64,000 bases of DNA from Halodesulfurarchaeum formicicum (GTDB taxonomy: Archaea; Halobacteriota; Halobacteria; Halobacteriales; Halobacteriaceae): positions 806,001 to 870,000 of the forward strand of contig NZ_CP016804.1 of NCBI RefSeq assembly GCF_001886955.1, written 5' to 3'. The translations under genes were made by a program, and so were the position numbers. Shown piece by piece: positions 9,959 to 30,254 of this stretch. The stretch's first letter is position 1; each line of letters opens with the position of its first letter. The notes under the pieces are model-generated. The model saw only the letters and a list, made by a program, of their open reading frames with translations, did no database searches and was not told the DNA's origin.

Positions 9959-10885
9959 TCAGTACTCGACGCCGGCGGTCACACGGTCGAGGACGAGTAC
10001 CAGGCCGCCCCCGAGGATCCCCATCCCCAGCAGAGCGGCGGTCGCCCCTGGCGTCCAAGTCTCAGTGGCCTCAAGAATCTCGCTCCCTGGGGCCCTGAGC
10101 GCGCCAGCCATGAGCGCCACGAGGAAGGTCAGCGTGGCGCTACGGTCGGTTTCGAGCGCCCAGGCGACCACGCGGGCGAAGGCCAACACACCAAGGCCCG
10201 CTCCCAGGGCGAAGACTGCAAGCACTGTTGCCGGCCCGAGGAGGTCCCCACCGCCGACCAGCGCGGTCGTGAGCTCTCGGACCGTCCCCACGATCCGCTC
10301 GTACTGGCCGAGTGCGAGCAGGATGAGCGAGCCGGAGATCCCTGGCAGGATCATCGCGCAGATGGCGACCGCGCCCGAGAGAAAGACCAGGCCGAGCCCG
10401 TCGCCGATCGAGGTGCTGGTCACGCCGGTGAGCACCCAGGCGACGGCGAAGCCGGCCACCGCGATGGCGATGCCTCGCGGGGTGTCGATCGCCATGGCCA
10501 CGCGGAGCACGACCACCGAGGCGGCGATCAGCCCGAAGAAGAAGGCGTAGGTCGGGCCGGGGTAGGACCCCACGGCGAGATGGATCACGTTCGCCGCGGT
10601 GACGGCTGCAGTCACGATCCCGATCCCGAGCACCGCCAGGAAGTGCAGGTCCAGTTCGACGAACCGGTCGACGGCCTCGCGGCGACCCTGGGCCTCGTGG
10701 CTCCCCAGCAGTGCACCGAGGAGCGCCAGCCCGCCCTCGACGTCGAGGCCGGCAATGGCGGTCACCAGGCGGTCGTAGATGCCCGCGATGAGCGCGATCG
10801 TGCCGCCAGAGACGCCGGGGATGGCGTCAGCGGTGCCCATCGCGAAGCCCTTGAGGTAGACCGCGAGCCAGTCTCGGGCGGCCAT
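9959..10885 (-). CDS. DUF368 membrane protein, candidate polyprenyl-phosphate transporter
   Basis: A 308-residue protein with about eight transmembrane helices and the DUF368 hallmark G-x-A-D-x-I-P-G-V-S-G-G-T near the N terminus, repeated as MILPGISGSLILLALG mid-protein. Bacterial DUF368 proteins (PopT) recycle undecaprenyl phosphate across the membrane. The ATG shares one base with the stop codon of aglB (TAATG), so the two are translationally coupled. An inferred role is return of dolichyl phosphate to the cytoplasmic face after AglB uses the lipid-linked glycan. Confidence 0.87.
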   Translation of the reverse strand: MAARDWLAVYLKGFAMGTADAIPGVSGGTIALIAGIYDRLVTAIAGLDVEGGLALLGALLGSHEAQGRREAVDRFVELDLHFLAVLGIGIVTAAVTAANVIHLAVGSYPGPTYAFFFGLIAASVVVLRVAMAIDTPRGIAIAVAGFAVAWVLTGVTSTSIGDGLGLVFLSGAVAICAMILPGISGSLILLALGQYERIVGTVRELTTALVGGGDLLGPATVLAVFALGAGLGVLAFARVVAWALETDRSATLTFLVALMAGALRAPGSEILEATETWTPGATAALLGMGILGGGLVLVLDRVTAGVEY

Positions 10886-13800
10886 TACTCGGTGGGCTGG
10901 GCCGTGACTTCGGGGAGGCCACTCGTGCCGACGGACTCGACGGTCTCGTTCGTGGTGTCAGTCGTGTTCGTGTCGGTCTGGGTGTCCTCCTGGCCCGTGT
11001 CGATCACCTGTTCGTCGAGGGTCACCGTGATGGGCTCGTCGCTCGCTCCGATCACGGTCCCTTCAGGCACGTCGACGGTGGCGCTGTGGGTCGTCATCGT
11101 CTCGTTCGCCCGGTCCACAGTCGTCGGCGTGCTGAACTCGTAGGGGCCGGTGGCCCGCACACTCGTGTTGGTGTACCCGTCCTCGGGGCCCCACGCATCG
11201 TAGTCGGTCGAGGCGTAGGGCAGGGTCATCTCGAAGTCGCCGTTCGCGTCCGTCTCGGCGTGCTGGGTGTAGGTGAACGTGCTGTCGTTGTAGGGAGCGT
11301 TCGACTCCAGCTCGACCGTGGCGGTCACAGTCGAGTCTGCCGGGCCCTCACCCTCGATGGTCGCGCCGGGGACACGCTCGAAGAGCTTGACCCAGGTGGG
11401 CTGTTCGCCCTCGCGGAACTCGAGATTCGCGAGTTTCTGCTGGCGGACGGTGGCGTCCTCGGAGACCCGGACCAGGCGATAGTGCTCCAGGGCTTTGAGG
11501 TCCTCACGCGGGAAGTCGGCCACCCCGCCGACGATCGCGTTGCTGTCGTTTGCGGCGAACTCCTGGGCGGCCTCACTGGACCGGAAGGTCCGGGAGGTGG
11601 CGTAGGTCGGAACCGGGTTCTGGTACTGCTCGTACTCGCGGTTCTCGTACTGGACGACGGTGTTCGCCTCGACCGCGCTCCCGTGGTGGTGATAGAGCCG
11701 GACCATCTGGCTCTCGTAGTAGCGCTGGGTTTTCAGCGTGGTCACGGGTGGCCGGAAGCCCGAGTTGAGGTAGGTCCCGGCGTTCGGGCCCAGGATCTGC
11801 CCGTCGGTCATGTTGTCGTAACTCAGGCTGTCGTTCGCGTTGTAGAAGACCGTGGGCGCGCTGAACTTGCCCTGGGTGTCGACCATCTTGTAGTCGACGG
11901 CCACGTACTGGGTTTCGGCGTCGTCCTCGTCGGTGGCCGCAAGCCGCTCGTTGGCGGTCTCCTCGTCACCGGCGAGCAGGTAGTTCGCGGCCTGGGTGGC
12001 GTGCTGCTGGAACGGGTTCGCGACCGGGATGCGCTCGCCCAGCACCGTGATCCAGTGGCCGTAGTCCCACCAGCTCATCACGCCGTAGGCCCCTTCGGGG
12101 TAGTCATAATCATCACCCTCGGGAATGGCGTAGGTGCCGTCGTAATCGAGTTGATCAGCGTTGCCCGCACCCCCGTAGTTCCCCACTTCGGGGGTGTTGT
12201 TCTGCATCCAGCCCAGGGTGCTGTCCCACTCGGTGACGGCCCCAGGCCCGGCGTTCGCGCCGGTCTGGACGGCGGTTTGCATCTGGACCTGCCGGCCGTC
12301 CTGGTTCGCGAAGCTGATCGGGGCGACCATGGGTGCAAAGAGCAGGAGCACGATGGTCACGACGAGCATGACGTGACTCCAGTCGATCGAGCGCGGGGAG
12401 AGAGTCGCCAGGCTGACGCCGAAGACGTCGATCACGCGCCCGACCGCGTAGGCCGCGAGGATGGCGACCGGGACGACGAGGTAGTAGTTGAACCGGACCT
12501 GGGTGAGTGCCGCGGCGAGCATGAACGCCGCCCAGACCACGAGCAGGATTTGCTCGGTGGGGTAGTCCCCGGCGATCAGTGCGGCGGCGACGGCCAGGCT
12601 GAGCACCAGCAGGCCGAAGAGGTCCCCGCTGAGGCCGATGATGCCCCCGAGGGCCGTGGGAATGGCCGGGAAGCCGACGAAGAGCCCACCCAGCAGGAGC
12701 ACGCCCGCGGCCATGCTGATGCGGCGGGAGTCAGAACTCAGGAGGTGTGGCCGGAGGATCATCCAGAGCCCGCCCAGCAGGGCGAGGAAGAAGGCCGCGC
12801 CGTACTCGTAGAAGAAGGCCTGCCAGGCCCCCAGGCCGAGTCGGTCGGCGCGGGACTGGAGGAAGGGCTGGGCCTCGCTGATGGTGCGGGTGGTTGCACC
12901 CGTGGAGAGGCCGACGATGCGGATGAGTTCATTGAGGATCATTCCGACCAGATCGGGGACGACGAGCAGTCCCGCGCCTGTGCTGACTACCAGGATACCC
13001 AGCACTGCAGGTGGGTAATAGGTCGGTTCGAGGTTCCGTGCCTCCCACTCGCGAGCCAGCCACGAGAGGAAGACTGCTCCGGCGGCGACCACCAGTGGGG
13101 CGATAACTTGGAGTAGTGTGTAGCCCGTCGCGGAAAATTCAAGGTAACGCAGCGGGACGAGCATGAGAATCCCGGTTGTGACCATTGCGATAGTGGCTGG
13201 GATGGCGGTGTGATCCGGGCTGACGCCACTCGTGACGTCACTGGAGAGTGAGACGAGCAGGAAGATGCCGACGATACCCACGAGGAAGACGCCGGGCGGC
13301 CACATCCACATGTACGCGGCCATGGCCACGCCCGCGAGGACGCCCCAGCCGATGACGTTTCGCAGGCCGGCGATATCGAGTTCGAGGAGTTGCTCCCAGA
13401 CCGGGCGTTCGCGGTCGGCGACGGCAAAGGCGACCAAGAGGCCCAGGATCGCCAGGGACATGAAGAGCGGTTCGGCGACGTTGTGGTCCGCTGAACCGAT
13501 GGTGCCACGCTGGAGGAAGAGACCAGGGAGAAGTGCGAGAACGAAGGCAGCGATTACGCCGACGATGTTGCCGCCGAATCTTCGAGCGATGAGGAAGGTC
13601 GGGATCGCAACCAGCGCACCGAAGATTGCGGGGGCGAAGGCCACGACAGTGGCAACTTGCTGGCTCGATGGGTCACCCAGGCCGACAATGAGGGCTGCTG
13701 TGGCGATCAGCTGGTCGAAGAGTGTGCCGAACTGGCCGGAATTGTTTCCTGCGGCGAATCCAGTCCAGACGTCAAATGGCATCGTCGCGAGCCCGTTCTC

Positions 13801-14016
13801 AACGGAGTACTGGACCTGGCGAAGGTGATACCAGGCGTCGTTCCCCGCGAGGTACGTTTTTCCGGGCTGGAGGAATCGATCCGCGGATTGGATCCGGATG
13901 AAGAACATCGTCACGACGGCCAGTACCAGCGCCGGCACGTGGTACCAGCGCCGGAACGTGTCCGTGAGTGCCTCCATGTCGATAGTGGAGCCACTCGCTG
14001 TCGAGTCGTCGCTCAT
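10885..14016 (-). CDS. aglB: Dolichyl-linked oligosaccharide-protein glycosyltransferase AglB
   Basis: The archaeal STT3-type oligosaccharyltransferase, 1043 residues, which moves glycan from dolichol to Asn in N-x-S/T sequons outside the membrane. About 13 transmembrane helices fill the first 600 residues. Catalytic markers are visible: AGNDAWYHLR in the first outer loop, SADHNVAEP (about residue 175), TISEAQPF (about 377, the SVSE-type motif) and WWDYGHWI (about 647). A beta-rich extracellular C-terminal domain ends in a Thr-rich tail. The ATG at 14014-14016 is chosen because a TATA-like box lies about 26-31 nt before it. The DUF368 gene is coupled downstream. Confidence 0.96.
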   Translation of the reverse strand: MSDDSTASGSTIDMEALTDTFRRWYHVPALVLAVVTMFFIRIQSADRFLQPGKTYLAGNDAWYHLRQVQYSVENGLATMPFDVWTGFAAGNNSGQFGTLFDQLIATAALIVGLGDPSSQQVATVVAFAPAIFGALVAIPTFLIARRFGGNIVGVIAAFVLALLPGLFLQRGTIGSADHNVAEPLFMSLAILGLLVAFAVADRERPVWEQLLELDIAGLRNVIGWGVLAGVAMAAYMWMWPPGVFLVGIVGIFLLVSLSSDVTSGVSPDHTAIPATIAMVTTGILMLVPLRYLEFSATGYTLLQVIAPLVVAAGAVFLSWLAREWEARNLEPTYYPPAVLGILVVSTGAGLLVVPDLVGMILNELIRIVGLSTGATTRTISEAQPFLQSRADRLGLGAWQAFFYEYGAAFFLALLGGLWMILRPHLLSSDSRRISMAAGVLLLGGLFVGFPAIPTALGGIIGLSGDLFGLLVLSLAVAAALIAGDYPTEQILLVVWAAFMLAAALTQVRFNYYLVVPVAILAAYAVGRVIDVFGVSLATLSPRSIDWSHVMLVVTIVLLLFAPMVAPISFANQDGRQVQMQTAVQTGANAGPGAVTEWDSTLGWMQNNTPEVGNYGGAGNADQLDYDGTYAIPEGDDYDYPEGAYGVMSWWDYGHWITVLGERIPVANPFQQHATQAANYLLAGDEETANERLAATDEDDAETQYVAVDYKMVDTQGKFSAPTVFYNANDSLSYDNMTDGQILGPNAGTYLNSGFRPPVTTLKTQRYYESQMVRLYHHHGSAVEANTVVQYENREYEQYQNPVPTYATSRTFRSSEAAQEFAANDSNAIVGGVADFPREDLKALEHYRLVRVSEDATVRQQKLANLEFREGEQPTWVKLFERVPGATIEGEGPADSTVTATVELESNAPYNDSTFTYTQHAETDANGDFEMTLPYASTDYDAWGPEDGYTNTSVRATGPYEFSTPTTVDRANETMTTHSATVDVPEGTVIGASDEPITVTLDEQVIDTGQEDTQTDTNTTDTTNETVESVGTSGLPEVTAQPTE

Positions 14017-14041
14017 TGGAATGAGGGACTTTGACGAGGCG

Positions 14042-14047
14042 AATAAG
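14042..14047 (-). promoter_or_regulatory. TATA-like box for aglB
   Basis: On the minus strand CTTATT lies 26-31 nt before the aglB ATG, consistent with a leaderless mRNA and supporting the chosen start. Confidence 0.4.
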
Positions 14048-14139
14048 CCTTGTGAATGTTGCCGAAAACGGCTGCCCAAACGGGGGTTATCTCTGAATGT
14101 ATGTAATTTCAGAACCGCGAACAGAATGCAAATCTGGCC

Positions 14140-15237
14140 TTATGCATTTCTAAATTTTGAAAAACCATACACGTAGCCGAGACCAACACTCACAGTGGCG
14201 AATAGCAAAAACCCAAGCTGCTGGAGGTTTTTGAGACGCTCCCCTCTGACCAGCTGCTTTAACCGGCTGGGAACTGCGCTCGTAACTAGGTTTTTCAAAA
14301 AGTCTGATTCCGATTCTAACTCAGTTTCACTGTATACCTGCATCCCGCGTTTCGAAACTCCTTGCCAGAACGCGCGTTTGAGGAGAAAAACAGGATCTGT
14401 CCGGAATTCGTACACCTTGTGACCGACCTCCGCGTCCGGATTATACAAAACACCGTGTCCCGTTTCTTCTGCAATACGGCCACATAGGTCTGTCTCCGCA
14501 CTTTGAAGGAGGGACCCACCTTTCGGACCGATCTCTGAGTTGAAGCCCCCGATTTCGTCAAAAACTGACTTTTTGACCGAGAGGTTAGACGCGAACGTGT
14601 TTCGAACCTCCGTCATTTCCTCCGGGTGGCCGGCATATGTGACACCAATGAGCCAGTAAAACTCCGGTGGGAGAAACTGGGGGTGTCCAGCAATCCAAAT
14701 TGGAACCATCTTTCCCCCTGCAGCGACCGCATCGTATTCAGTATAGCAGCGGACTAATTCTTGTAACCAATCTTCATCCGCGACAGCATCGTCGTCGAAA
14801 AACGCCACGATCTCCCCTTCAGCTTTTGCTACTGCTCGGTTACGGCTGCTTGCAGCGCCAACGTTGGTCTCGTTTACGAGAATGGAGACTGCCGATTTGT
14901 CCTCCCAACGATCACGAAGGCGTTTGCCGAGTTCCTCTCGCCCATCTACGACTACAATGACATCTCTCTCAGAATAGTTCCCGTCAAGTATACTTTGGAC
15001 CCCTTCGTTGATATCAGGAAATCGTTCAGGGTCATAAGCCGTCACAATGACCGTGACGTGCGGTTCCTTGTTCGTTGACACGCGATTGGATTTTCTTTCG
15101 TTGGCAAAATCTTTTGTGCTACGAATTGGGCGGTGAGTTTCTGATAAATCTATAGAGTGTTTGTTTTGGGATCGATCTAATGGGAAGTCAACCTTTGACC
15201 TGAATCGGGCAGTTGTCGAAGTAGGGAGCTCATCCAC
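14140..15237 (-). CDS. GT2 glycosyltransferase, AglG/AglI-like
   Basis: A 365-residue family-2 glycosyltransferase. The GT-A domain starts near residue 60 (VTVIVTAYD), with NETNVGAASSRNRAVAKA and the metal-binding FFDDDAVADEDWL (DDD motif). EIGGFNSEI and a later ETDLCGRI supply acceptor-loop and base residues. A C-terminal hydrophobic segment (FLLFATVSVGLGYVYGF) anchors it to the membrane. The architecture fits haloarchaeal dolichyl-phosphate sugar transferases such as AglG and AglI. The first 45 residues are atypical, so a start at an internal GTG (V-S-T-N-K) is possible. Codons are AT-richer than in aglB; this gene opens the AT-rich island. Confidence 0.85.
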   Translation of the reverse strand: MDELPTSTTARFRSKVDFPLDRSQNKHSIDLSETHRPIRSTKDFANERKSNRVSTNKEPHVTVIVTAYDPERFPDINEGVQSILDGNYSERDVIVVVDGREELGKRLRDRWEDKSAVSILVNETNVGAASSRNRAVAKAEGEIVAFFDDDAVADEDWLQELVRCYTEYDAVAAGGKMVPIWIAGHPQFLPPEFYWLIGVTYAGHPEEMTEVRNTFASNLSVKKSVFDEIGGFNSEIGPKGGSLLQSAETDLCGRIAEETGHGVLYNPDAEVGHKVYEFRTDPVFLLKRAFWQGVSKRGMQVYSETELESESDFLKNLVTSAVPSRLKQLVRGERLKNLQQLGFLLFATVSVGLGYVYGFSKFRNA

Positions 15238-15392
15238 GGCTGTAGCTGTTTCCGTTGATTTGGGACGACTGGTACCAATCTGCTGTAATGTGTGGTGGCG
15301 GAGGTAACTTCATCCAGTTAGTCAGTAGGAAACTTCGGGCTCTCTGTGGAATTCGAAGACGACATACCGGAGAGTCCGTAATAGAATTTTTA

Positions 15393-16433
15393 ATGAAGAT
15401 ACTGTGGCTTCGCCCGTCCAAAGGAGATAATATCAGTGTTCGGCGGGAGCGGATCGCCTCCGAGTTACGGGAACGAGGTTACACCGTCGACATCGTCGAT
15501 GCTTCTGGATGGGATGCCCCAAAGGCCATCTGGAAGGCGTTGACCGGTTCCTATGATATTATTGCGGGTAACGTTCGAGTTGGGCTCTATCTTGGATATC
15601 CGATTGCTCGACTTCTTCGGACTCCGTTCTTGGGCGACGTGAGCGACCCGATTTCGGATATCGACTATCTTCCTGAACCGCTGTTCCGGTTCTTCGAACG
15701 GTACGAATGGTGGGTGTTGGAACGAGCTGATGCGACGGTGTTTGTCTACAAATCGAGCTATCAAGAAGCACTTGACCGTGGGATAGACGACGCAGTTCGA
15801 CTTCCGAACGCCGTGGATTACGAGGCCTTTGCCGATCCCAATCCGGAAGCAGTGCGAGATGCGGAGTCGATTTTACGGGAGGAAGGCGTTGATCTTGATA
15901 ATCCGATCGCGATATATCTCGGGGTTCTGACACCGAGTTACAAGATCGAAGCGATTCTCGAGACGGCCCAACACGCACCGGAGTGGGAGTTTGTCTTTAT
16001 TGGGGAAGGCGATCTGGCTGATACTGTTCGGCAGGAAGCACAGTCACAGGACAACGTCCACTATCCGGGTGCGTTCGAATACCGACTCATGCCTGGATTT
16101 CTTGCACATGCAGACGTCGGTTTCTGTTTCAAGGATGCTGAACAGCCGTTGAAGCTCAAGGAGTACGGCGCGGCAGGGCTTCCTACTATCGTTCGGCCTG
16201 GGGAGTTGTCGAAATGGTACGATGATAATGAGTTGGCGTTTTTAGAGCCAGATCCCGAAGCCATTGTTGATCGGTTAGATGAATTGGGGAGTAATCAAGA
16301 AATGTACGCGACTTACAGCGAGGCAGGACGTGAGATTGGGAGTGAATGGAGCTGGGAGGAGATTGCAGAAGGTTATATTCGAATTTTTGAGGACAAATTC
16401 CAAGATTTAGTTTCCCATTCTGAACTGCTTTAA
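15393..16433 (+). CDS. GT4-type glycosyltransferase
   Basis: A 346-residue GT-B glycosyltransferase. MKILWLRPSKGDNISVRRERIASELRERG is the N-terminal acceptor domain, PNAVDYEAF the interdomain sugar-nucleotide loop, and EQPLKLKEYGAAGLPTIV the E-x7-E-like donor site. The ATG at 15393 is preferred over the longer frame from 15255, which lacks family features. It diverges from the GT2 gene across a 155-bp gap. Donor and acceptor are unknown; context points to surface-glycan assembly. Confidence 0.82.
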   Translation: MKILWLRPSKGDNISVRRERIASELRERGYTVDIVDASGWDAPKAIWKALTGSYDIIAGNVRVGLYLGYPIARLLRTPFLGDVSDPISDIDYLPEPLFRFFERYEWWVLERADATVFVYKSSYQEALDRGIDDAVRLPNAVDYEAFADPNPEAVRDAESILREEGVDLDNPIAIYLGVLTPSYKIEAILETAQHAPEWEFVFIGEGDLADTVRQEAQSQDNVHYPGAFEYRLMPGFLAHADVGFCFKDAEQPLKLKEYGAAGLPTIVRPGELSKWYDDNELAFLEPDPEAIVDRLDELGSNQEMYATYSEAGREIGSEWSWEEIAEGYIRIFEDKFQDLVSHSELL

Positions 16434-17106
16434 GCACCCAAATAGACTTAAAACCGGGACAAAAGAAATTGTTACAACGAACCGAATAATGTTAGACTAT
16501 TTCCGGAGTTTTTGTTAACTCTATGAGGGACAACAGTAAATATGAACAGGTGACAGGTACGTTACTGAACGTAAGCACATCAGTTGTATAACCAAAAAAT
16601 TCACTGGATGAAAATGTCTCGATCAATTGGACATTATCTCATATGTTCGGCCCAAGTTTGAACATATCGATCAGAAACACGTCGAGTGATGTAACCGATA
16701 AGTTAGCCAATATTAGCTCAAGGTAGATGAGGATGAACACGAAGATGGCGACCCGAGGTTGTAGAAGTTATTAATCCCTTTTTCGTTACGACGAAGTTTG
16801 ATGCGAGAGTCCCTGAACTGATCTGTGGCGTCCACGAAGTCCTGATAGAGCTAATATGTCAATCCGAGAATATGACTGTCTCGTTGTATCGAGAAGCGCG
16901 TCGACATTCCGCCGATGGGCGACAATGTTGTTTTCCGAATCAGATATGAGTGTACCCGTGCGAAGACGCATCTACCACTATGGTTGGTACTTGACCCACA
17001 GAAGTACTCTGACTCCGCGGCACAGGCAAAATACAGGCCCCGGGCTCGGGGGAACATGCTAAAACTTACTTGTCCTCCATGGTTAACATGGTCTAGAAGG
17101 GTTAAA
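16434..17106 (+). other. Long AT-rich intergenic stretch before the Kdo operon
   Basis: About 670 bp with no convincing gene. Reading frames here are short and overlap on both strands, and none has a family motif. The upstream half is AT-rich with stop codons in all frames. The 200 bp before 17107 is more GC-rich and may be a gene remnant. The promoter of the Kdo-type operon must lie here; I could not fix it to a single box. Confidence 0.5.
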
Positions 17107-18300
17107 ATGAGTCAATTAGTTTTTTCAGATGTCGATGGCGTCCTCACAGACTCGAAAATCAATATCGGCCGGGATGGCGAGGTCTTCAAATCGTTTGACG
17201 TAAAAGACGGATACGGAATCGTCCAGTGGCGGGAACAGGACGGCCGCGACTTCGCGATCGTCACCTCAAGGGAATCCCAAGCTGTTGCTAATCGGGCGTC
17301 GGAACTTGGTGTGGACGAGGTCCACCAAGGGGTGGAAAATAAAAAACAAAAAATCGAGGAGATCACACTTCGTCTCGGATTCGATCTCGCGGATTCGGTT
17401 TACATTGGCGACGATCTGACGGACCTACAGGCTATGAAAACTGTTGGGACGGCTTGTTGTCCCGCAGACGCGGCTCAAAAAGTAAAAAACGAGTGTTCGT
17501 ACGTCAGCCAGTACAACGGTGGCGACGGAGCCGTTCGGGACATCCTGAACCACTTAGAAACAGCTTCTCAAATAGCACTTGGCGTTATTCCCGCTCGATA
17601 TGGGTCAACGCGTCTGCCCGGTAAACCATTAGTCGAGATAGCTGGCAAGCCGATGATTCAGCATGTATACGAGCGTGCGAGCAGAGCGAACTTGCTTGAC
17701 GACCTCATCGTTGCAACAGACGATGAACGCATTGTTGAGGCGGTCGAGGCGGTCGGCGGCACCGCAATGATGACCGAAGCTGATCACCCGACAGGAACGG
17801 ATCGGGTGGCAGAAGTGGCTGCGAATGTCGGCGCGGACTTTACGATCAATATCCAGGGCGACGAGCCGCTAATTAACCCTGATCTCATCGACGCAATTGT
17901 GACGGCTCTTAGAGAGAACTCTCCGAAAGTCGCAACGCCGATCTCCCCAATTGAAGATGAATCACTCCTTAACGACGAAAACACGGTCAAGGTTGTAACC
18001 GACGCCGACGGAAGGGCGCTTTACTTTTCGCGGTCGAAAATACCATCAGGTGGAGAAACAGGAACGACGTACAAACATATCGGGCTGTATGGATTCGAGA
18101 CAGAGCTCCTACTCAAATACATCAATATGGAGTCAGAACTCGAATCCGTTGAAGACCTCGAACAACTTCGGCTGCTTGAAAATGGGTACGAAATACAAAC
18201 TGTTGAGACAGACTACAACTCAAAAGAGGTTAACGTGGAAAGTGATATAATGAGGGTGGAAAAAGAAATAGAACAGATACACACCCATGGAACTCAGTAA
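17107..18300 (+). CDS. Fused Kdo-8-phosphate phosphatase (KdsC) and CMP-Kdo synthetase (KdsB)
   Basis: A 397-residue two-domain enzyme. Residues 1 to about 155 are a KdsC-type HAD phosphatase without cap: FSDVDGVLTD with nucleophile Asp8 and Asp10, TSRES, and GDDLTD at 101-106. Residues about 156-397 are KdsB: IPARYGSTRLPGKPL (161-175), QGDEPLI (250-256), KHIGLYGF and the ESVEDLEQLRLLENG block that marks CMP-Kdo synthetases rather than sialic-acid ones. It would dephosphorylate Kdo-8-P and activate Kdo with CTP. The ATG at 17107 begins the HAD fold; upstream codons in frame do not fit. The stop overlaps kdsA by 14 nt. Confidence 0.9.
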   Translation: MSQLVFSDVDGVLTDSKINIGRDGEVFKSFDVKDGYGIVQWREQDGRDFAIVTSRESQAVANRASELGVDEVHQGVENKKQKIEEITLRLGFDLADSVYIGDDLTDLQAMKTVGTACCPADAAQKVKNECSYVSQYNGGDGAVRDILNHLETASQIALGVIPARYGSTRLPGKPLVEIAGKPMIQHVYERASRANLLDDLIVATDDERIVEAVEAVGGTAMMTEADHPTGTDRVAEVAANVGADFTINIQGDEPLINPDLIDAIVTALRENSPKVATPISPIEDESLLNDENTVKVVTDADGRALYFSRSKIPSGGETGTTYKHIGLYGFETELLLKYINMESELESVEDLEQLRLLENGYEIQTVETDYNSKEVNVESDIMRVEKEIEQIHTHGTQ

Positions 18301-19105
18301 CAACATTTCCGTTTCTAACGAAGACGATTTTTTCTTGATCGCGGGTCCGTGTGCGATCGAATCAGAGGAACAAGTGCTGAAGACAGCACGGGAACTGAAA
18401 GACATCACTGACCGCCACGACATCGACCTGATTTTCAAGAGTTCGTTCGACAAAGCTAACCGGTCGTCGATCAGTTCGTATCGTGGTCCCGGGATGGAAC
18501 GGGGACTCGAAATCTTACAGCGGGTCAAAGACGAGTACGACCTTCCGGTTATAACTGACTTCCACGTCCCTGAACAGGCAGAGCCCGCTGCAGACGTCGT
18601 TGACGCTCTCCAGGTGCCAGCGTTCCTCTCACGGCAAACCGATATGCTCACTGCGGCTGGAGAGACGGGACTCCCGATCAACGTCAAGAAGGGGCAGTTT
18701 CTTGCTGCGGACGGTATGGATAACGTCGTGAACAAGATTGAATCGACGGGGAACGAACGGGTGATGCTCTGTGAACGCGGGGCGATGTTTGGATACAATA
18801 ACCTCGTCGCTGATATGCGGAATTTAGATATTATGAAGGGACTAGACAAGCCGGTTGTGTTCGACACGACACACTCGGTGCAACGGCCGGGCGCACAGGG
18901 CGACTCCAGTGGGGGGGATCGTCGGTTTGCGCCGACGTTAGCGCGGGCCGCACTTGGTGTTGGGGTGGCTGGTATTTTTGCCGAAGTGCACCCTGATCCG
19001 TCGTCAGCCAAATCCGACGCGGCGACACAACTTCCGCTCGATGATTTCGAATCGCTCCTAAAACAATGGAAAGCGATTGATAAAGCGGTGAAACATGGCA
19101 AGTGA
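18287..19105 (+). CDS. kdsA: 3-deoxy-D-manno-octulosonate-8-phosphate synthase
   Basis: A 272-residue TIM-barrel enzyme condensing arabinose-5-phosphate with PEP to give Kdo-8-P. Markers are AGPCAIESEE (Cys22), FKSSFDKANRSS (50-61), QVPAFLSRQTDML, NVKKGQFLA, FGYNNLVADMR and the TTHSVQ, EVHPDP and KSDAATQLPL blocks. Cys22, His196, Glu233 and Asp244 line up with the four metal ligands of the Aquifex enzyme, so this should be the metal-dependent class. The usual Cys of AFLCRQTD is Ser here. It overlaps the genes on both sides (14 and 11 nt). NeuB-type sialic acid synthases lack the SSFDKANRSS block, so that alternative is unlikely. Confidence 0.94.
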   Translation: MELSNNISVSNEDDFFLIAGPCAIESEEQVLKTARELKDITDRHDIDLIFKSSFDKANRSSISSYRGPGMERGLEILQRVKDEYDLPVITDFHVPEQAEPAADVVDALQVPAFLSRQTDMLTAAGETGLPINVKKGQFLAADGMDNVVNKIESTGNERVMLCERGAMFGYNNLVADMRNLDIMKGLDKPVVFDTTHSVQRPGAQGDSSGGDRRFAPTLARAALGVGVAGIFAEVHPDPSSAKSDAATQLPLDDFESLLKQWKAIDKAVKHGK

Positions 19106-20087
19106 TCAGGACGGGCTGGCCAAGACAGATGTTCGTGATGCCGTCTATCACACGCTATCGGTTCAAGAAAGTTCAATTTCCACGCTACAGGATACGGAGA
19201 CGGTCGCGGAGATAACCCGTGTGGCGGAAGTGATTAGCGAAGAAGATGGTCGGGTGGTATTTTCCGGAATTGGAAAGTCCGGGGACGTGGGCAAGAAGGT
19301 CTCATCGACCTTCAATAGTATAGGGGTGTCTTCGCACTTCATTCATCCTGTCGAGGCTCTCCACGGAGACTTGGGGGCTCTTTCAGCGGAAGACGTTGTT
19401 GTTCTTATCTCGAATAGCGGAAACACGGACGAGATGGTAGAGCTACTGCAATTTCTTCGCTCGTTCGATGCGACGACTGTATCGATCACGTCCGATCCTG
19501 AATCGAAATTAGGCACAAGGGCGGATTATCATATCAACACGAAAATAGAAGAGGAAGGAGCGGTCGTGGAGTTAGTCCCGATGGCCAGTGCTACTTCCAC
19601 GATGGTCATCGGAGACTGTATCGCTAATGCACTGATGGCAAATCGGGATTTCAGCGAACAGGATTACGGACACTTCCATCCTGGGGGAACAATTGGGAAG
19701 CGTTTGTTGCTTACCGTTGAGGATTTACTACACAAGAATATTCCAAAAACTCGGCCAGCAGACACACTAGCTAAAGTTGCTCTGAAAATAAGTGAGGGCG
19801 GTAAAGGGATTGCTGTGGTTCAGGACGATGATGACTATGTGAAAGGGGTCTTAACGGACGGTGATATACGCCGATTTATTGAATCTGGTACTGACTTCCA
19901 TGATGTGGTAGCCGAAGAAGTGATGATTACGGATCCGATTACGACTTCCGTTGATATGGCCGCAATACGGGCTTTAGAAGTTATTGAGGAGAAAAATATT
20001 TCACAGCTTGTGGTGACTGATGATTCTGACCAGTTCTTAGGTGTCGTTCACATCCATGACATTATGGAGAGAGGGTTGACGGCATAA
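19095..20087 (+). CDS. kdsD: Arabinose-5-phosphate isomerase
   Basis: A 330-residue KdsD/KpsF protein that interconverts ribulose-5-phosphate and arabinose-5-phosphate, the first step toward Kdo. The SIS domain shows SGIGKSGDVGKK (57-68), HPVEALHGDLGAL and SNSGNTDE (107-114), then GHFHPGGTIGKRLL, the family's catalytic His loop. Two CBS domains fill the C-terminal third, each ending in a GVLTDGDIRR- or GVVHIHDIM-type strand. Length and order match bacterial KdsD. It overlaps kdsA by 11 nt and ends one base before the next gene. Confidence 0.93.
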   Translation: MASDQDGLAKTDVRDAVYHTLSVQESSISTLQDTETVAEITRVAEVISEEDGRVVFSGIGKSGDVGKKVSSTFNSIGVSSHFIHPVEALHGDLGALSAEDVVVLISNSGNTDEMVELLQFLRSFDATTVSITSDPESKLGTRADYHINTKIEEEGAVVELVPMASATSTMVIGDCIANALMANRDFSEQDYGHFHPGGTIGKRLLLTVEDLLHKNIPKTRPADTLAKVALKISEGGKGIAVVQDDDDYVKGVLTDGDIRRFIESGTDFHDVVAEEVMITDPITTSVDMAAIRALEVIEEKNISQLVVTDDSDQFLGVVHIHDIMERGLTA

Positions 20088-20088
20088 T

Positions 20089-21372
20089 ATGGACGATATT
20101 CTATTTATCTCAGATACCTCGGATGGGCAGAACTGGGGCTGTTACGAAACCAGTAGACAGTTGAGAAACCTTCTATTGGAGTCAGTGGACATACAATATA
20201 CAGTTTTTTTGAACGAAATCAGGGACCCAATCCGCACTACCGTTCCCCCGTCATTATCTGATGTTCAGTATTTAATCGGAGAGTCTTCGAAGATATTCGA
20301 AAGTTCTTCCCCAATATATAGGCGATTTCTTGATCATGGGTTACGACCAGCAAAACACGTATTTGATATTTATCCTAGAGTTATGGACCAATTTGAAAAC
20401 AAGTCCGAACTGTTTCTCAAATCAAAATTGTTCGGCAAGTATTTCCCAGACCCTGGCAATATCGACCAGGTCGTTATTAATGGTGAAGGGAGCATCCATG
20501 GTAACCGGATTAAATCTCGAATATTATTGTTCTTTGCCTACATATGGCGGGTGAAGCTAGACAAGCCCACACACATTGTCAATCATACTCTGCAAATTGA
20601 CACACCTGAATTGAAGGAGATGATTAAGGTAATATACCCGCAATTGAATTCTATCGCTTTTAGAGAGCCAATCTCAAAATTAGAATATCACTCTAAGATT
20701 GGTGATACAAATAATACTATTCAGGCAGCTGACACCGCTTGGCTGTTAGACGACTGCTTAACAAAGACCGATCTGAACACCATTTTGCGTCAAGGTGGAA
20801 TGTCGGTCTGGCATCCTACAGAAATCCAACCTAGTTTTGATTTCACTGATCGATATGTATGTGTTAGTGGGGGTTCAGGGTTTGGCCACGGGAAAGAGGA
20901 TTCAGAAAAAATAGCCGAAATAATACGGTCACTATTAGATAACAATATTGACGCTAATATACTCCTTGTAGCTCCTGCACAACACGATGAGCATATTCTT
21001 CTTAGAGTGGCTGAAGGCTTCAATCTACCTTTAGCAAAGGTTAGCAATAACTCTCTTGTTGGCGCATCAATAATCGGAAATTCCGAACTGTACTTAGGTG
21101 GTAGATGGCATGGAAGTATATTTGCATTACTAAACGGTGCTAGGTTGGTTAACTTTAAGGCAAACACATTTAAAATGAGGGGGCTGAAAGATATGACAAA
21201 CCACCCATACCAAATCTATCCTTCTCAACAAGCTGGTAACAAAGCAGACGAAATAGCTAAATCTGTTATAAGTGGATTAGACAAGAGTATTGGAGATGGT
21301 CAGGAAAAGATGATAAAATCACTTCAAAGTATGAGTAGGAAAAATTTAGATGGCGTACGCGAGGATGTTTAA
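20089..21372 (+). CDS. Polysaccharide pyruvyl transferase family protein
   Basis: A 427-residue protein of the PF04230-like family, which adds pyruvate from PEP to sugars as ketals, or in some members acts as a glycosyltransferase. VVINGEGSIHGNR near residue 130 and GGRWHGSIFALLNGARLVNF near 345 are the two family blocks. It starts one base after kdsD ends, so it belongs to the same transcript. Codon use is markedly AT-rich (ATA, TTA, AGA common), unlike the core genes of this genome, which points to transfer. Confidence 0.8.
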   Translation: MDDILFISDTSDGQNWGCYETSRQLRNLLLESVDIQYTVFLNEIRDPIRTTVPPSLSDVQYLIGESSKIFESSSPIYRRFLDHGLRPAKHVFDIYPRVMDQFENKSELFLKSKLFGKYFPDPGNIDQVVINGEGSIHGNRIKSRILLFFAYIWRVKLDKPTHIVNHTLQIDTPELKEMIKVIYPQLNSIAFREPISKLEYHSKIGDTNNTIQAADTAWLLDDCLTKTDLNTILRQGGMSVWHPTEIQPSFDFTDRYVCVSGGSGFGHGKEDSEKIAEIIRSLLDNNIDANILLVAPAQHDEHILLRVAEGFNLPLAKVSNNSLVGASIIGNSELYLGGRWHGSIFALLNGARLVNFKANTFKMRGLKDMTNHPYQIYPSQQAGNKADEIAKSVISGLDKSIGDGQEKMIKSLQSMSRKNLDGVREDV

Positions 21373-22821
21373 ATGGTGAATAATAACCCAAAGTCCGACA
21401 GCTCAAGCAGCATAAGGAATGTAGTACTATTATGCCTAGACTCGGTTCGTAAAGACTACTTCGACAGATACGCAAAGAGGTTGAACGAACAATCTGACGT
21501 GGTGTATAACGGTGCGCGTGCGGCTAGTGGGTGGAGCTTACCGAGTCACGCCAGCATGTTCACTGGAGAACTCCCGCATTCGCATGGTGCTCATGCTCAC
21601 TCAGATGGATTTGAACCCATAAGTATAACGGACACCTTTTTATCTGACCTGCCAAACCATTCTATACTAGGAGTGAGCACAAATACATTTGCGGGTGAGG
21701 CTTATGGATTTGATAAATACTTTGACGTTTTCTCAGAAGTACCTCATAATTCGTTCCAACTTTCTAAAGGAGTTTCTCCTGAAGATTTTGGGAAAATAAA
21801 TAAGTTTGAATACTTGAAAGAATCAATAAGGGACAATGACACTATTTACAGTCTGATAAATGGTATAATATCGAAGTTCGGTATGTATGAGCGCATATTT
21901 TCAGGTAGACCATGGCCCGAAATCAACGACAATGGAACAGCCCGTTCACTCCAATTGGCTGAGTCTCATATAACGAATACTGAGTCAGCAGAAAATCCTG
22001 TATTTGTCTTTTTGAATTTAATGGAGTCCCATTCCCCGATGTATGCACATTATAATTACGACAGTACAATTCATACCGTTCCAAATTCATGGACATCCGC
22101 AAATGGCCCAAAAAACAGGGAAGTTTCGTTTGACGCTGATAGCTACCGAGAATATATTAATAATTGGACAGATATTTATAGTGCATCTATTGACTACCTT
22201 GACAGAGTCATAAGTGATTGGATAGAAAGAATCAATACACTCACCGAAAATGAAACCACAATAGTAGTCACCTCAGACCATGGTCAAAATTTGGGAAATC
22301 CATCAGAAGAGGAGTTGTTTGGACATCAATCGAGTCTTAGCGAAGGGATTCTCCATGTTCCTTTACTCATCATTAACCCACCAGATGGCTATCAGGAACA
22401 AGTGGACAGATTGATTAGTCATTTAGAGATTGGTTCGCTGATTACCCACTTGGCGAACGAAGACATGTACAAATTCAGCAATAACAGTGTCACTAGTGAG
22501 GTTGTCGGAACAATAAAAAGTCACAAAAATAACCTTACGTATTGGGATCGCCCTATCCGCTGTTCGTATAAAGATGAAACAAAAAAAGTACTCTGGGATG
22601 GTTTAGAAACGACAAAAATTTATGACATAGATGAAAGTATACCGAACGTACAAAATGAAATAGACATTATTGAAAACATGACTCCCGAAGATGACGATAT
22701 TTTGTTTGAGGTCTCGATAAAGGAGATGAAACGAAAGGCTCTAAGGGATAGATTATCATCAGGTAATCAAGATCTCTCCGATGATGTACAATCAAGGCTA
22801 TCCGACCTGGGATATGTTTGA
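21373..22821 (+). CDS. Alkaline-phosphatase superfamily sulfatase-like enzyme
   Basis: A 482-residue enzyme with the alkaline phosphatase/sulfatase fold. VVLLCLDSVRKDYF carries the first metal Asp; SGWSLPSHASMFTG is the nucleophile region, with Ser in place of the C-x-P-x-R Cys of classical sulfatases; VVTSDHGQNLG provides the metal Asp-His pair. No signal peptide is seen, so it would act in the cytoplasm unless it leaves by another route. It could remove or transfer sulfate or phosphoryl groups on glycans. Its ATG follows the previous stop with no gap. AT-rich codons as in its neighbours. Confidence 0.72.
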   Translation: MVNNNPKSDSSSSIRNVVLLCLDSVRKDYFDRYAKRLNEQSDVVYNGARAASGWSLPSHASMFTGELPHSHGAHAHSDGFEPISITDTFLSDLPNHSILGVSTNTFAGEAYGFDKYFDVFSEVPHNSFQLSKGVSPEDFGKINKFEYLKESIRDNDTIYSLINGIISKFGMYERIFSGRPWPEINDNGTARSLQLAESHITNTESAENPVFVFLNLMESHSPMYAHYNYDSTIHTVPNSWTSANGPKNREVSFDADSYREYINNWTDIYSASIDYLDRVISDWIERINTLTENETTIVVTSDHGQNLGNPSEEELFGHQSSLSEGILHVPLLIINPPDGYQEQVDRLISHLEIGSLITHLANEDMYKFSNNSVTSEVVGTIKSHKNNLTYWDRPIRCSYKDETKKVLWDGLETTKIYDIDESIPNVQNEIDIIENMTPEDDDILFEVSIKEMKRKALRDRLSSGNQDLSDDVQSRLSDLGYV

Positions 22822-22867
22822 ACAACTAAATAGGCAAATAGATCTGTTTCCGTAGTTAATTTCCACT

Positions 22868-23785
22868 ATGTCAATGAAAATGTTACAGAACAGATATGAG
22901 GGAGAGAGGGTTTTTTTGATTGGTAATGGTCCAAGTTTGGATAAAACGCCGCTTGATCGGCTAAATAGTGAATACAGTATAGCTTTGAATGGGATAAATG
23001 ACATATATTCGGAAACTACATGGAGGCCTTCTTTTTACGTTCTCTTACTTGAGGAATTTGAGAAGAACTATGATACCTATTTCATTAATAATTTTAGGTC
23101 AGGCGTAGAATGTATAACATTACGCCAACATAAAGGGAAATTTGGTGATAGGGAAGACATTCATTATGTCAAAAAGAAGAAGCTCAAATGCAATCCGGTG
23201 GAATCCGGTAAAAACTTCCACGAATTAAGTAAAGAGGAAATTCAATCTATGAGGCTCTGTGATCTATATGAGTTCTGGCCTAATGATATCTCTAAATGTC
23301 TATACACATATCACTCGATGTATGCAATTATTCAAATCGCCATATATATGGGTTTCAAAGAAATCTACCTTCTTGGCTGTGATTTGGGCTATAGTACCTA
23401 TGATCCACATATGATATTTAACGAGGGATTAAACCCTCACGGCTGGAAGGAGGGTAAGAACGCCTACTTGCTAGAAAGCTATCGAGAAGATATACTAATA
23501 AAATCAGTTATAAATGAGATCATTTTCAAGATTCTCTCCTCTCCGATTGGAGAACTTGCTGGTCAGGTCTTAGATTATGTGAATGAATTAGATGACGCAA
23601 ACCGGTTCGGTTCGCATACACAGCTTCAACCCGAAGACCTCACACATGTGAACGACGAAATAACGAAAAGTCATATTGCGGCTCAACGAATTGCTTCTGA
23701 TCAAGGAGTTGATATTTATAATGCAACAATTGGGGGAGAGCTAGAAGTATATCCCCGTGTATCACTGGAAAATGTAGTAGATTGA
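22868..23785 (+). CDS. DUF115/MptE-Maf-like protein, copy 1 (candidate sugar transferase)
   Basis: A 305-residue protein of the DUF115 family. VFLIGNGPSLDKTPL (15-29), LNGINDIYSETTWRPSFYVL and MYAIIQIAIYMGFKEIYLLGCDLGY form the nucleotide-binding half; IYNATIGGELEVYPRV is the family's C-terminal block. The same fold core occurs in Maf proteins, which transfer CMP-activated nonulosonic acids to flagellin, and resembles GT42 sialyltransferases; another branch, MptE, makes pterin diphosphate. Neighbouring CMP-Kdo genes favour a CMP-sugar transferase, but this is inference. The following gene is a diverged tandem copy. AT-rich. Confidence 0.72.
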   Translation: MSMKMLQNRYEGERVFLIGNGPSLDKTPLDRLNSEYSIALNGINDIYSETTWRPSFYVLLLEEFEKNYDTYFINNFRSGVECITLRQHKGKFGDREDIHYVKKKKLKCNPVESGKNFHELSKEEIQSMRLCDLYEFWPNDISKCLYTYHSMYAIIQIAIYMGFKEIYLLGCDLGYSTYDPHMIFNEGLNPHGWKEGKNAYLLESYREDILIKSVINEIIFKILSSPIGELAGQVLDYVNELDDANRFGSHTQLQPEDLTHVNDEITKSHIAAQRIASDQGVDIYNATIGGELEVYPRVSLENVVD

Positions 23786-23792
23786 TAATAAT

Positions 23793-24722
23793 ATGGATCT
23801 TATTGAAATTAGAAACGAATACTCGGGCAGAATTTTCTTAATCGGGAGCGGGCCAAGTCTCAAAGAGACACCGCTTGAGTTACTCCAGGATGAATATACA
23901 TTTGCCGCGAATAGCATTTCGGATATATTCAGTGAAACGGAGTGGCGACCGTCATTTTACGCCTGCGTTGACGACGGAGTTGACACAAGTTACTGTGAAG
24001 AAGCAATAGAACTCGGGATACCATGCTTTTTTCCGGAAAAGACTACCCGAGGAACCGCACTAATCGAATCTGTCCCAACCAAGGATAACACTCTGTTTTT
24101 CGAAAATATCGATCTCCGAGATCGCGCCGACTTGGATATATCCACGTTCCAGTTGAATTCTGACTCAATAACGAGCTATCATGACGTTTGGTCTGAGGAC
24201 ATCACAGAGGTCGTGTATGGATATAACACAGTGATGTACCAGATGATGCAAATATCGCTTTACATGGGGTTCGATGAAATCCATCTCGTGGGAAACGACC
24301 TCTACGACGTTTTTGATGGGTATTTGCTGTTTCCAGAAGCTGCAGACCCAGCTGTATTCCATGGAGATGGTGAATCGATACTCCAGAATGGAATCGAATT
24401 TCTACATGATAGTAATTACCTCCTGAAGTCGTTTGCCAATGCGTTATCGTATAAAACGATTAAATCTAAAGTATTCAGCAAACTGTATCCGCAGCTTTCA
24501 AACCATATCGAATTAATTGACCAGGATAATTACTTCTCAGAAGACTATTCCAATGGGGAAATCATAACGCCAGAAAAGAACCGTAGACATATTCTTGCCC
24601 ACGAACTGGCCAAATCAGTCTCTGATGAACTTGGATTCGACATCTATAACGCAACTGTGGGCGGGCATCTGGAAGTTTACCCAAGAACAGATATTACAAG
24701 CGTTGTTGAGGATGGAGAGTAA
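23793..24722 (+). CDS. DUF115/MptE-Maf-like protein, copy 2 (candidate sugar transferase)
   Basis: A 309-residue paralogue of the preceding protein, 7 bp downstream. It has IFLIGSGPSLKETPLELL, ANSISDIFSETEWRPSFYAC, MMQISLYMGFDEIHLVGNDLY and IYNATVGGHLEVYPRT in the same order. The middle (about 60-140) differs most, as expected if the two act on different acceptors. Codons are less AT-rich than in copy 1, so the pair may have diverged before arriving here. Function as for copy 1: a CMP-sugar-dependent transferase is possible, pterin metabolism is the alternative. Confidence 0.7.
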   Translation: MDLIEIRNEYSGRIFLIGSGPSLKETPLELLQDEYTFAANSISDIFSETEWRPSFYACVDDGVDTSYCEEAIELGIPCFFPEKTTRGTALIESVPTKDNTLFFENIDLRDRADLDISTFQLNSDSITSYHDVWSEDITEVVYGYNTVMYQMMQISLYMGFDEIHLVGNDLYDVFDGYLLFPEAADPAVFHGDGESILQNGIEFLHDSNYLLKSFANALSYKTIKSKVFSKLYPQLSNHIELIDQDNYFSEDYSNGEIITPEKNRRHILAHELAKSVSDELGFDIYNATVGGHLEVYPRTDITSVVEDGE

Positions 24723-24807
24723 CGATTAAATTCTACTCCAGCGACAAGATCCTCTGTGATGCTAATAGACCAATTACGTTTAGTAAATGTATGCGAGAGC
24801 TATTATT

Positions 24808-26007
24808 ATGGAACAATTAGGAATTCTGTACTACGTTAGTTCGTTTCCGAAGCTCTCTGAGAGTTTCATACTAAATGAAATCACCGAACTTCACCACCGG
24901 GGGCATAATATCGCAGTCTTTGCCCAAAACGACCCAGGAGAAAATATTACGCATGAGGAATACGAAGACATTGACGTTCCGATTTACTATGTGGATGCCT
25001 CGTATACTGATTTCCCCCAATTACTCTCTAAGAAATCCGCTCAAATGGCACTAGGCCATGCAACAGACGGGCTTTTCAAGCATTTCTCACCAAAGCGAAT
25101 TGGCCACAACTTACTCTTAGGCAAGCAAAGTGCTGAGTTCATCGAATCACTTGATTTCGACATTGATATCGTTACTGCTCACTTTGCGAGTCCCTCCAGA
25201 ATTGGTGCGATGCTCGCTGCACGCTATTACGGTATTCCATGTACGGTTACCGCCCATGCATACGAAATATTCTCTTCTCCGATTGTTCCTCAGATAAAGT
25301 ATATCTGCGATAGTATGGATCACGTGGTTGTCCCATCTGAATACAATCGGAACTATCTTCGCGAAGAGATCGGGATTGCAAACGATATAACGGTTGTTCC
25401 AGCGACGACACAGGTTGAGAAGTTCGAACCGACAGCCCTTACCGTTGAGAACCGACTGTTAACTGTTGCTCGGTTGGTTGAAAAGAAAGGCTATCCGTAT
25501 GGTATTGAGGCCGTGAATAAGCTCATTGAACAAGGGTACGATGTCGAATATCACATCGTTGGAACTGGTGATAGGAAAGACCGCTTACAGCAACAGGTGA
25601 AAGAGTACGGCATTGAAGGTCACGTCGAGTTCTTGGGTCACGTCTCCGATGAACGACTCCAGAAAGAACTGAGTGAAGCCGCTGTCTTTGTATTGCCTTG
25701 CGTTATTGCTGAGGACGGCGATCGAGATGCAATGCCGGTCGTTCTCAAGGAAGCGATGGCGTCAGAAACCGCGTGCGTCTCGACAACCGTCTCTGCGATT
25801 CCGGAACTCATTACTGACGCCCATAACGGGTTGTTGGTTCCAGAGAAAGAACCTAATGAGTTAGCGTCTGCAATCCAAGAACTCCTTGATAATCCGGAAA
25901 AACGGAAAGCCATAGCAACGAATGGGCGAGAAACCGTCCATAATAAGTTTGATATTTCTAAGTCTGTAGATACATTAGTCGAGGTATTTCAGTCCTTGCA
26001 GAACTGA
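24808..26007 (+). CDS. GT4-type glycosyltransferase
   Basis: A 399-residue GT-B enzyme. FPKLSESFILNEITEL is the typical N-terminal acceptor loop of polysaccharide GT4 enzymes; TAHAYEIF and VPSEYNRNYL lie in the linker region; AEDGDRDAMPVVLKEAMASE carries the E-x7-E donor site. Two starts are possible: 24787, or the ATG at 24808 chosen here because the Rossmann strand starts right after it. It closes the AT-rich cluster and has intermediate base composition. Donor unknown. Confidence 0.83.
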   Translation: MEQLGILYYVSSFPKLSESFILNEITELHHRGHNIAVFAQNDPGENITHEEYEDIDVPIYYVDASYTDFPQLLSKKSAQMALGHATDGLFKHFSPKRIGHNLLLGKQSAEFIESLDFDIDIVTAHFASPSRIGAMLAARYYGIPCTVTAHAYEIFSSPIVPQIKYICDSMDHVVVPSEYNRNYLREEIGIANDITVVPATTQVEKFEPTALTVENRLLTVARLVEKKGYPYGIEAVNKLIEQGYDVEYHIVGTGDRKDRLQQQVKEYGIEGHVEFLGHVSDERLQKELSEAAVFVLPCVIAEDGDRDAMPVVLKEAMASETACVSTTVSAIPELITDAHNGLLVPEKEPNELASAIQELLDNPEKRKAIATNGRETVHNKFDISKSVDTLVEVFQSLQN

Positions 26008-28982: not shown

Positions 28983-30254
28983 CTAACCGAGTAATTCGGC
29001 AGGTGTGTAGTCACCATTCACGTTCAACGTCCCTGACTTGAGGGCCAGTTGACTGGTGGCCCATCCACCGCGAGACTTCTGCCCGCGATGGATATACCCG
29101 CAGTATCGGTTGGCGATGTTCTTCGCCGCGTTGTAATCCGCGTTCACCTCATACCCACATGATTGGCACTCGAACGCCTTGTCCTCACGATTGTCCACGT
29201 GGGTAAACCCACAGTGCGAACACCGCTGACTCGTGTACGCGGGATTCACCGTGTCCACGAACAGCGCCGTGGATTCAACCTTGTACTCCACGAGTTCCAC
29301 GAACTTCGCGTAAGCCCACTGCTGGAACTTCGACCCATTAGCGATTTTCTCACGGATATGGTCAAGGTTCTCAAAAATGATGCCATCTACATCCGCGTCT
29401 TGGGCTTCCGCGATGAGGTCGTTGGCGCGGTTGTGCAACCAGTCCAGCGACCAATCCGAAAAGCGGCTACCGATGGACTGGATGGTGAGGTGCGCGGAAC
29501 GAGTGCCAGCCTGTTGCAGTTTGGCGCGGCGTTGTTCGTATTGGTTGCGCTTGTGGGTGAGGTAGTCCGCACTCCCGATGAACTCGCCCGTTGAGGTGAC
29601 GGCGAACGTGCCAGTCACGTTCAGGTCAACACCGAGAACCACTCCGTTCTCGGCACCATCATCATCGTGACCAGCTTCTTGGCGTCCGCTTGCGTCAACC
29701 GTGTAGTCGGGGTTCTTCAGCGTGACGTGCAGGTAGAACGTGTCGTCCTGATCGTCGTACTGGAGCGTGGCGCTGGAGGCATCCCACGCTTCACTCTCGT
29801 AGTACCTTCCGAACGGGGTATCTTCGCGTTCGTCCTCAGGTGGGAGGACGTATTCAGCGGTGACTCTGCCGTTTGGCGTGGAGAGCGTGGCGTGGTCATC
29901 GTTGAACGAAGCGGAGCGTTTGTCGTAGACGACGCTCCACGAGTCGAAATCGGGTTGACTGGTCTTCTCGCCGTCCTTGAGTTTCTCAACGCCTGCATCG
30001 ACGGCTTCGATTGCGCGGCGGATGCCTTTCTGGACGAGGTTGGCGGTGAGGTTGGTTTCTTCGCGCAATTCGTCGTATAGGGCGTTTTCAGCTTTGTTCT
30101 TACTGGTGACACAGTAGTCATCGTAGCGCCACGCCCACTCACTCGTTCGGTTGGCGCAGTGCAGAAATTGGGTTTTGGTTTGTTGGAGGTCGCCACGACG
30201 CTCTTCGGGCACATCGAGTTTGATGGGCACGGTGCGCCGTGGGGCGTCGTCCAT
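28983..30254 (-). CDS. tnpB: TnpB RNA-guided nuclease
   Basis: A 423-residue TnpB. The RuvC nuclease triad is intact by motif: GVDLN (first Asp), FENLD (Glu) and ADYNAAKNIA (last Asp). A zinc finger CSHC...CQSC lies between the second and third. The N-terminal half holds the helical and wedge regions. Full length and intact catalytic residues suggest a working protein. In IS605-type elements TnpB cuts DNA with a guide RNA from the element's right end and preserves the element at its site. Confidence 0.92.
   Translation of the reverse strand: MDDAPRRTVPIKLDVPEERRGDLQQTKTQFLHCANRTSEWAWRYDDYCVTSKNKAENALYDELREETNLTANLVQKGIRRAIEAVDAGVEKLKDGEKTSQPDFDSWSVVYDKRSASFNDDHATLSTPNGRVTAEYVLPPEDEREDTPFGRYYESEAWDASSATLQYDDQDDTFYLHVTLKNPDYTVDASGRQEAGHDDDGAENGVVLGVDLNVTGTFAVTSTGEFIGSADYLTHKRNQYEQRRAKLQQAGTRSAHLTIQSIGSRFSDWSLDWLHNRANDLIAEAQDADVDGIIFENLDHIREKIANGSKFQQWAYAKFVELVEYKVESTALFVDTVNPAYTSQRCSHCGFTHVDNREDKAFECQSCGYEVNADYNAAKNIANRYCGYIHRGQKSRGGWATSQLALKSGTLNVNGDYTPAELLG

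Follow-up and report, generated by a model that had tools for sequence, protein, structure and literature searches.

Two adjacent haloarchaeal genes encoding DUF115 proteins, here called D115a and D115b, were analysed as part of a gene cluster for Kdo. The observed gene content and homology, together with the predicted fold, the linkage to CMP-sugar synthetase genes and the replacement by KpsC/KpsS-type proteins, lead us to infer that one or both proteins are likely to be the Kdo glycosyltransferases of the cluster, with Kdo specificity, inversion, the type of acceptor and activity in either copy as predicted properties. The first-pass annotation had proposed the same role and had named both proteins as relatives of Maf and GT42 enzymes. 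This core idea was supported by the exclusion of an MptE function, by the synthetase linkage and by fold and profile comparisons, and gained additional backing from homology to WaaZ and from kds clusters in which DUF115 and KpsC/KpsS-type proteins take each other's place.

The window, the whole stretch of 64,000 nucleotides that was analysed, covers positions 806001 to 870000 of a single contig of 2.09 Mb. D115a and D115b are indeed tandem open reading frames, separated by 7 bp, and are located near the end of a plus-strand run with the full CMP-Kdo gene set, in the order fused kdsC-kdsB, kdsA, kdsD, PF04230 gene, sulfatase, D115a, D115b and GT4 (Table 1). Each of the four kds activities exceeded the curated NCBIfam cut-off of at least one model, including the KdsB part (190 bits against TIGR00466, cut-off 155) and the KdsC part (130 bits against TIGR01670, cut-off 107) of the fusion protein. 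The real start of this fusion is probably about 60 codons downstream, at the start of its homologues (MGxLVFSDVDGVLTDSK). The same single-protein fusion was seen in the haloarchaeal genomes G016, G026, G145 and G296, while in G253 it is interrupted by the contig end; it looks typical of haloarchaeal kds operons. The GC content of the island fits what an acquired island would show. Just to the right of it, an open reading frame on the minus strand (28983-30254) resembles a TnpB/OrfB transposon protein, which may bear on the arrival of the island.

Table 1. Features of the glycosylation island and its surroundings (positions within the window)
Feature	Position	Strand	Basis
AglB/STT3 oligosaccharyltransferase, left edge of island	10885..14079	-	
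Low-GC glycosylation island, 38-52% GC versus 57-70% on either side	14000..26000	.	GC content
GT2 glycosyltransferase	14140..15237	-	Pfam
GT4-type glycosyltransferase	15255..16433	+	Pfam
KdsC-KdsB fusion: Kdo-8-P phosphatase (residues ~67-215) and CMP-Kdo synthetase (residues ~222-454)	16915..18300	+	Pfam, NCBIfam
KdsA, Kdo-8-phosphate synthase	18287..19105	+	TIGR01362, 389.9 bits (cut-off 314)
KdsD, arabinose-5-phosphate isomerase (SIS and CBS)	19095..20087	+	TIGR00393, 267.5 bits (cut-off 203.7)
PF04230 polysaccharide pyruvyl transferase family protein	20089..21372	+	Pfam; homologue in G016 operon
PF00884 sulfatase-family protein	21373..22821	+	Pfam
D115a, DUF115/MptE-like fold, candidate CMP-Kdo glycosyltransferase of 305 aa with Arg246 at putative base	22868..23785	+	ORF, Pfam, NCBIfam, alignment, AlphaFold model
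D115b, diverged second DUF115, 309 aa, candidate CMP-Kdo glycosyltransferase, Tyr at putative base	23793..24722	+	ORF, Pfam, alignment, AlphaFold model, tree
GT4-type glycosyltransferase	24787..26007	+	Pfam

Both proteins carry the blocks noted in the first annotation, GNGPSL or GSGPSL on the N-terminal side and IYNATIGG or IYNATVGG on the C-terminal side. Among 69 aligned relatives, G-P-S-L was found in 68 and N285 and T287 in 67 to 68, while P54, Y160, G162, L168, G170, D172 and L292 are invariant; given this conservation, the blocks are family signatures and not a chance likeness. Each protein covers most of the Pfam model PF01973 (MptE-like, cut-off 34.6), D115a scoring above the cut-off (37.5 bits) and D115b below it (32.9 bits). 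Searches with each single protein against PDB sequences gave no match and a family profile was required, which matched CstII (E 7.8e-5) and Maf (E 4.5e-4).

AlphaFold modelling of D115a and D115b used alignments of 69 and 55 sequences, respectively, and gave good models (mean pLDDT 87.5 and 84.8), which were compared with Maf and CstI as had been suggested. The Maf structure 5mu5 was the top VIA-align match of both (Z 14.0; rmsd 3.5 and 3.1 over 191 and 185 residues), followed by CstI and CstII with about 190-200 residues aligned (Z 12-13); for CstI, Z was 12.3 over 199 residues with D115a and 13.0 over 200 residues with D115b. The Foldseek ranking for D115a agrees with this order. Together with the profile matches, the model folds bear out the kinship to Maf and GT42.

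Maf proteins (5mu5 of Magnetospirillum, CbMaf of C. botulinum and PseD) thus offer the closest solved fold, and their donors are CMP-ulosonates. However, 5mu5 has about 630 residues with additional domains, whereas D115a and D115b consist of one domain and fall short of the multi-domain size of Maf (about 600 residues or more). Maf enzymes glycosylate Ser/Thr of flagellin, while the D115a and D115b genes adjoin surface-glycan genes. Two Maf enzymes that contain the domain, one from Clostridium botulinum and one from Geobacillus kaustophilus, transferred Kdo from CMP-Kdo to flagellin in E. coli (PMC11339370), which shows that the domain is able to use this donor. CstI and CstII of GT42 share the fold, the GNGPSL loop and a GxxEIYLxGxD block with D115a and D115b, but use sialic acid donors.

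The first-pass annotation had seen no known Kdo transferase. This stood for the WaaA N-domain PF04413 (GT30) and for PF05159 (Capsule_synth, the family to which KpsC and KpsS belong), neither of which was found at E <= 1 in the whole 2.09 Mb genome. It needs correction for WaaZ, since D115a and D115b are themselves, judged by profile comparison, distant homologues of this enzyme. WaaZ of E. coli K-12 is the Kdo-III transferase (PMC4651636). It scored 29.6 bits against PF01973, below the cut-off (hhalign E 2.5e-5), and matched the family profile at E 6.5e-9 as the sole protein of the waa region below 0.2. In turn, the WaaZ model was matched by 33 of the 69 family members and PseD by 14. Against the WaaZ equivalog model TIGR04437, D115a and D115b reached 24.1 and 24.2 bits in the N-terminal part only, short of the cut-off of 200. 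WaaZ is also of comparable length (283 residues), but the similarity is limited to the first two thirds, with no detectable alignment in the C-terminal part that holds IYNATxGG, and its substrate is the inner core of LPS, which archaea do not possess.

The strongest evidence for a role in Kdo transfer is the mutual replacement of DUF115 and PF05159. Where kdsA is linked to a DUF115 gene, PF05159 was present in none of 13 genomes (two haloarchaea and 11 Bacillota), while it was located near kdsA in all seven genomes without a linked DUF115 gene (four haloarchaea and three Bacilli). Six of 391 haloarchaeal genomes contain kdsA. The present genome and G016 have DUF115 and no PF05159 anywhere; G026, G145, G253 and G296 have no DUF115 and encode PF05159 at a distance of about 8 kb or less from kdsA in three cases and about 16 kb in G296. 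The match in G026 is weak (E 0.0096), although the protein shares 26% identity with that of G145 across 574 residues and contains the KxHP motif. The 11 Bacillota genomes in which DUF115 is linked to kdsA gave no match to PF05159 or WaaA. Three further kdsA loci, taken from an evenly drawn sample of 299 Bacilli genomes, all had no DUF115 within 10 kb and a PF05159 gene adjoining the kds genes or a few genes away. A plain Fisher test on 0 of 13 versus 7 of 7 gives one in 77,520 arrangements (about 1e-5), a value not to be taken at face value, as 11 of the 13 genomes were found through DUF115 and the genomes are related and not phylogenetically independent. A published Kdo island of Bacillus coahuilensis also carries kpsC (PMC4744853). 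In the archaeal and Gram-positive Kdo clusters examined, DUF115 proteins of the Maf/WaaZ/CstII type and KpsC/KpsS types stand in for each other. KpsC/KpsS, WbbB and KrkA (GT107, GT99 and GT140) are retaining beta-Kdo transferases with a modified GT-B fold (PMC12887879); they share the proposed role of Kdo addition in kds clusters, but belong to sequence families unrelated to DUF115.

Whether both copies are active was considered from their residues. GT42 enzymes are inverting and use a histidine base, His188 in CstII (PMC4202792). At the column that probably corresponds to His188, where the alignment is weak, most relatives have His or Tyr. The histidine is kept in neither D115 protein: D115a has Arg246, unique among the 69, and D115b has Tyr. 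The four aligned haloarchaeal relatives of D115a and the G016 protein have His at this column. His or Tyr at this position does not set the kdsA-linked members apart (eight His and seven Tyr among 17). In D115a, either another residue would serve as base or the protein is altered, and with an Arg at the putative base it might be altered or inactive. A reading with somewhat less than even chances is that Kdo transfer is the work of a single active copy, while its neighbour is inactive, a partner subunit or specific for a different sugar; it overlaps with our preferred explanation, for which one active copy suffices. In line with it, the two proteins are only 33% identical, D115b lacks the histidine of the DPHM motif and sits on a long branch apart from the haloarchaeal clade of D115a (the pair is thus no recent duplication), and G016 has a single D115. 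On the other hand, the G-P-S-L loop, N41, W52, D172 and the IYNAT block are kept by both, the models fold alike, and multiple copies occur in Bacillus kds loci too. The two putative transferases might, as the first-pass annotation had suggested, make two linkages or act on two acceptors.

The first-pass annotation had named, as an outcome that would speak against its idea, a family living mostly apart from CMP-sugar enzymes. The reverse was found: of the 80 genome loci with genes for relatives, 75 contain a CMP-sugar synthetase gene, which is directly adjacent in 36 of these 75 (48%, versus 12% for other genes of those loci; reached by 0 of 10,000 permutations). All haloarchaeal DUF115 loci examined (G016, G217, G074, G112, a Salinibaculum and G359) have such a gene. 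G016 shows the same kds operon arrangement, with the pyruvyl transferase gene and its one D115. In 12 bacterial loci, mostly Gram-positive, kdsA lies within 10 kb of a DUF115 gene; the order in Bacillus sp. ISL-41 is D115-kdsB-kdsA-kdsD-kdsC-D115-D115, and that in B. pinisoli is nearly identical.

Within the haloarchaea alone, the co-occurrence of D115 and kdsA is modest: each was found in six of 391 genomes and both in two (hypergeometric P 0.003). The other four of the six DUF115 genomes have CMP-sugar synthetases other than that for Kdo, and the haloarchaeal family is not confined to Kdo. A single clade of kdsA-linked members, by which sequence could predict Kdo, was rejected by the tree, on which the kdsA-linked label switches at least six times on well-supported branches. 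Donor choice is thus labile, and it is the operon and its neighbourhood, not the sequence, on which the assignment of Kdo is based. D115a and D115b could then be CMP-ulosonate transferases for a Kdo derivative or another CMP-sugar, given that donors vary within the family, known Maf enzymes are promiscuous (PMC11339370) and the relatives in G074 and G112 accompany other cytidylyltransferases. We regard this as unlikely, the only CMP-sugar pathway found in the operon being a complete Kdo pathway with scores above the cut-offs.

Some neighbourhoods of relatives differed in gene content. In the halophilic archaeon SHRA6 (L034, 4716-9034 and 9386-10288), DUF115 genes occur with two CTP_transf_3 genes, a Pfam-confirmed HpcH/HpaI-type aldolase gene and an Ldh_2 dehydrogenase gene; in Haloferax larsenii (L035, 5478-9116), a DUF115 gene occurs with two CTP_transf_3 genes and an HpcH/HpaI-type aldolase gene recognised by similarity. 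These sets possibly represent a different, undescribed CMP-ulosonic acid pathway. The H. larsenii DUF115 gene (7127-8375) is in pieces in different frames, as a pseudogene or through sequencing error. On two IMG/VR contigs (L121, 3593-6493; L122, 5775-8669), genes for a KdsA-like synthase (38%), for two cytidylyltransferases and for a DUF115 protein follow one another; they are either CMP-ulosonate glycosylation genes of putative viral contigs or mislabelled host sequence. In a Bacilli kds cluster (L156, 7376-8671), a fusion of a cytidylyltransferase with an RraA-like domain (PF03737) takes the place of plain KdsB. Several kds or CMP-sugar clusters of haloarchaea share a protein of about 320 residues (L031, 12336-13283; L030, 15433-16422; L144, 15666-16607; 36-39% identical), and searches with the L031 and L030 copies gave no Pfam match.

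The PF04230 protein might be the real Kdo transferase, leaving another task to the DUF115 proteins. Both here and in G016, whose protein is 42.7% identical, its gene is placed after kdsD and before D115, and in G026, too, PF04230 is encoded near kds. We hold this to be quite improbable: PF04230 is the family of pyruvyl transferases, D115 was not accompanied by a detected homologue in G217, G074 and G112 or, by blastp at 1e-8, in any of the loci of 92 relatives including the bacterial kds-D115 loci, and the kds cluster of G026 additionally holds a KpsC-like protein.

The first-pass annotation had recognised that a clear assignment to the MptE pterin kinases would refute its proposal. A role of D115a and D115b as such kinases or as kinases of another kind, to which the Pfam name points, is hardly credible, since a separate MptE is encoded in the same genome (C1:1047681; PF01973 E 2.3e-15), the motifs TDLD, HGDN and GFTDGDR, all present in this MptE, occur in 0 of 75 DUF115 family members including D115a and D115b, and genes of the D115 type are located in sugar clusters. 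The archaeal HPPK of M. jannaschii (8sd5) shares the core fold and is among the best fold matches, with close scores over fewer residues (Z 11.7 for D115a and 12.9 for D115b); fold alone would not decide, but the motifs, the gene context and the second MptE do.

According to the proposed Kdo transferase function, KdsD would supply arabinose-5-phosphate, KdsA would join it with PEP, the KdsC part would take off the phosphate and the KdsB part would form CMP-Kdo, from which the DUF115 proteins would move Kdo onto the growing glycan. The nucleotide is expected at the GNGPSL loop of the Maf/GT42-type fold. By analogy to GT42, D115a and D115b are probably inverting and would give alpha-Kdo. AglB/STT3 at the island edge suggests an N-glycan as end product, and legionaminic acid in a haloarchaeal N-glycan offers a precedent for an ulosonic acid there (PMC6137143). 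The proximity of AglB prompts the guess that Kdo is probably added to a lipid-linked oligosaccharide used in AglB-dependent N-glycosylation, or else to a related surface glycan.

Textbook accounts treat Kdo as a hallmark of the outer membranes of Gram-negative bacteria. Full kds operons in haloarchaea and Gram-positive bacteria raise the question of what attaches Kdo there, and a literature search for Kdo biosynthesis in haloarchaea, within a limited literature collection, found no paper. The results support D115a and D115b as short stand-alone CMP-ulosonate transferases of the Maf/GT42/WaaZ superfamily that serve Kdo clusters of LPS-free organisms. We lean slightly towards the broader view that short stand-alone DUF115 proteins form a distinct class of Kdo transferases in LPS-free haloarchaea and Gram-positives, functionally interchangeable with the unrelated KpsC/KpsS but, as GT42-like enzymes, giving the opposite (alpha) anomer; this would be the first archaeal Kdo transferase, with a part in the assembly of surface glycans or N-glycans. 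The replacement pattern is a testable answer to the question of attachment, with alpha-Kdo predicted alongside DUF115 and beta-Kdo alongside KpsC/KpsS-type proteins, and with it a large family currently named 'MptE-like' would gain a function.
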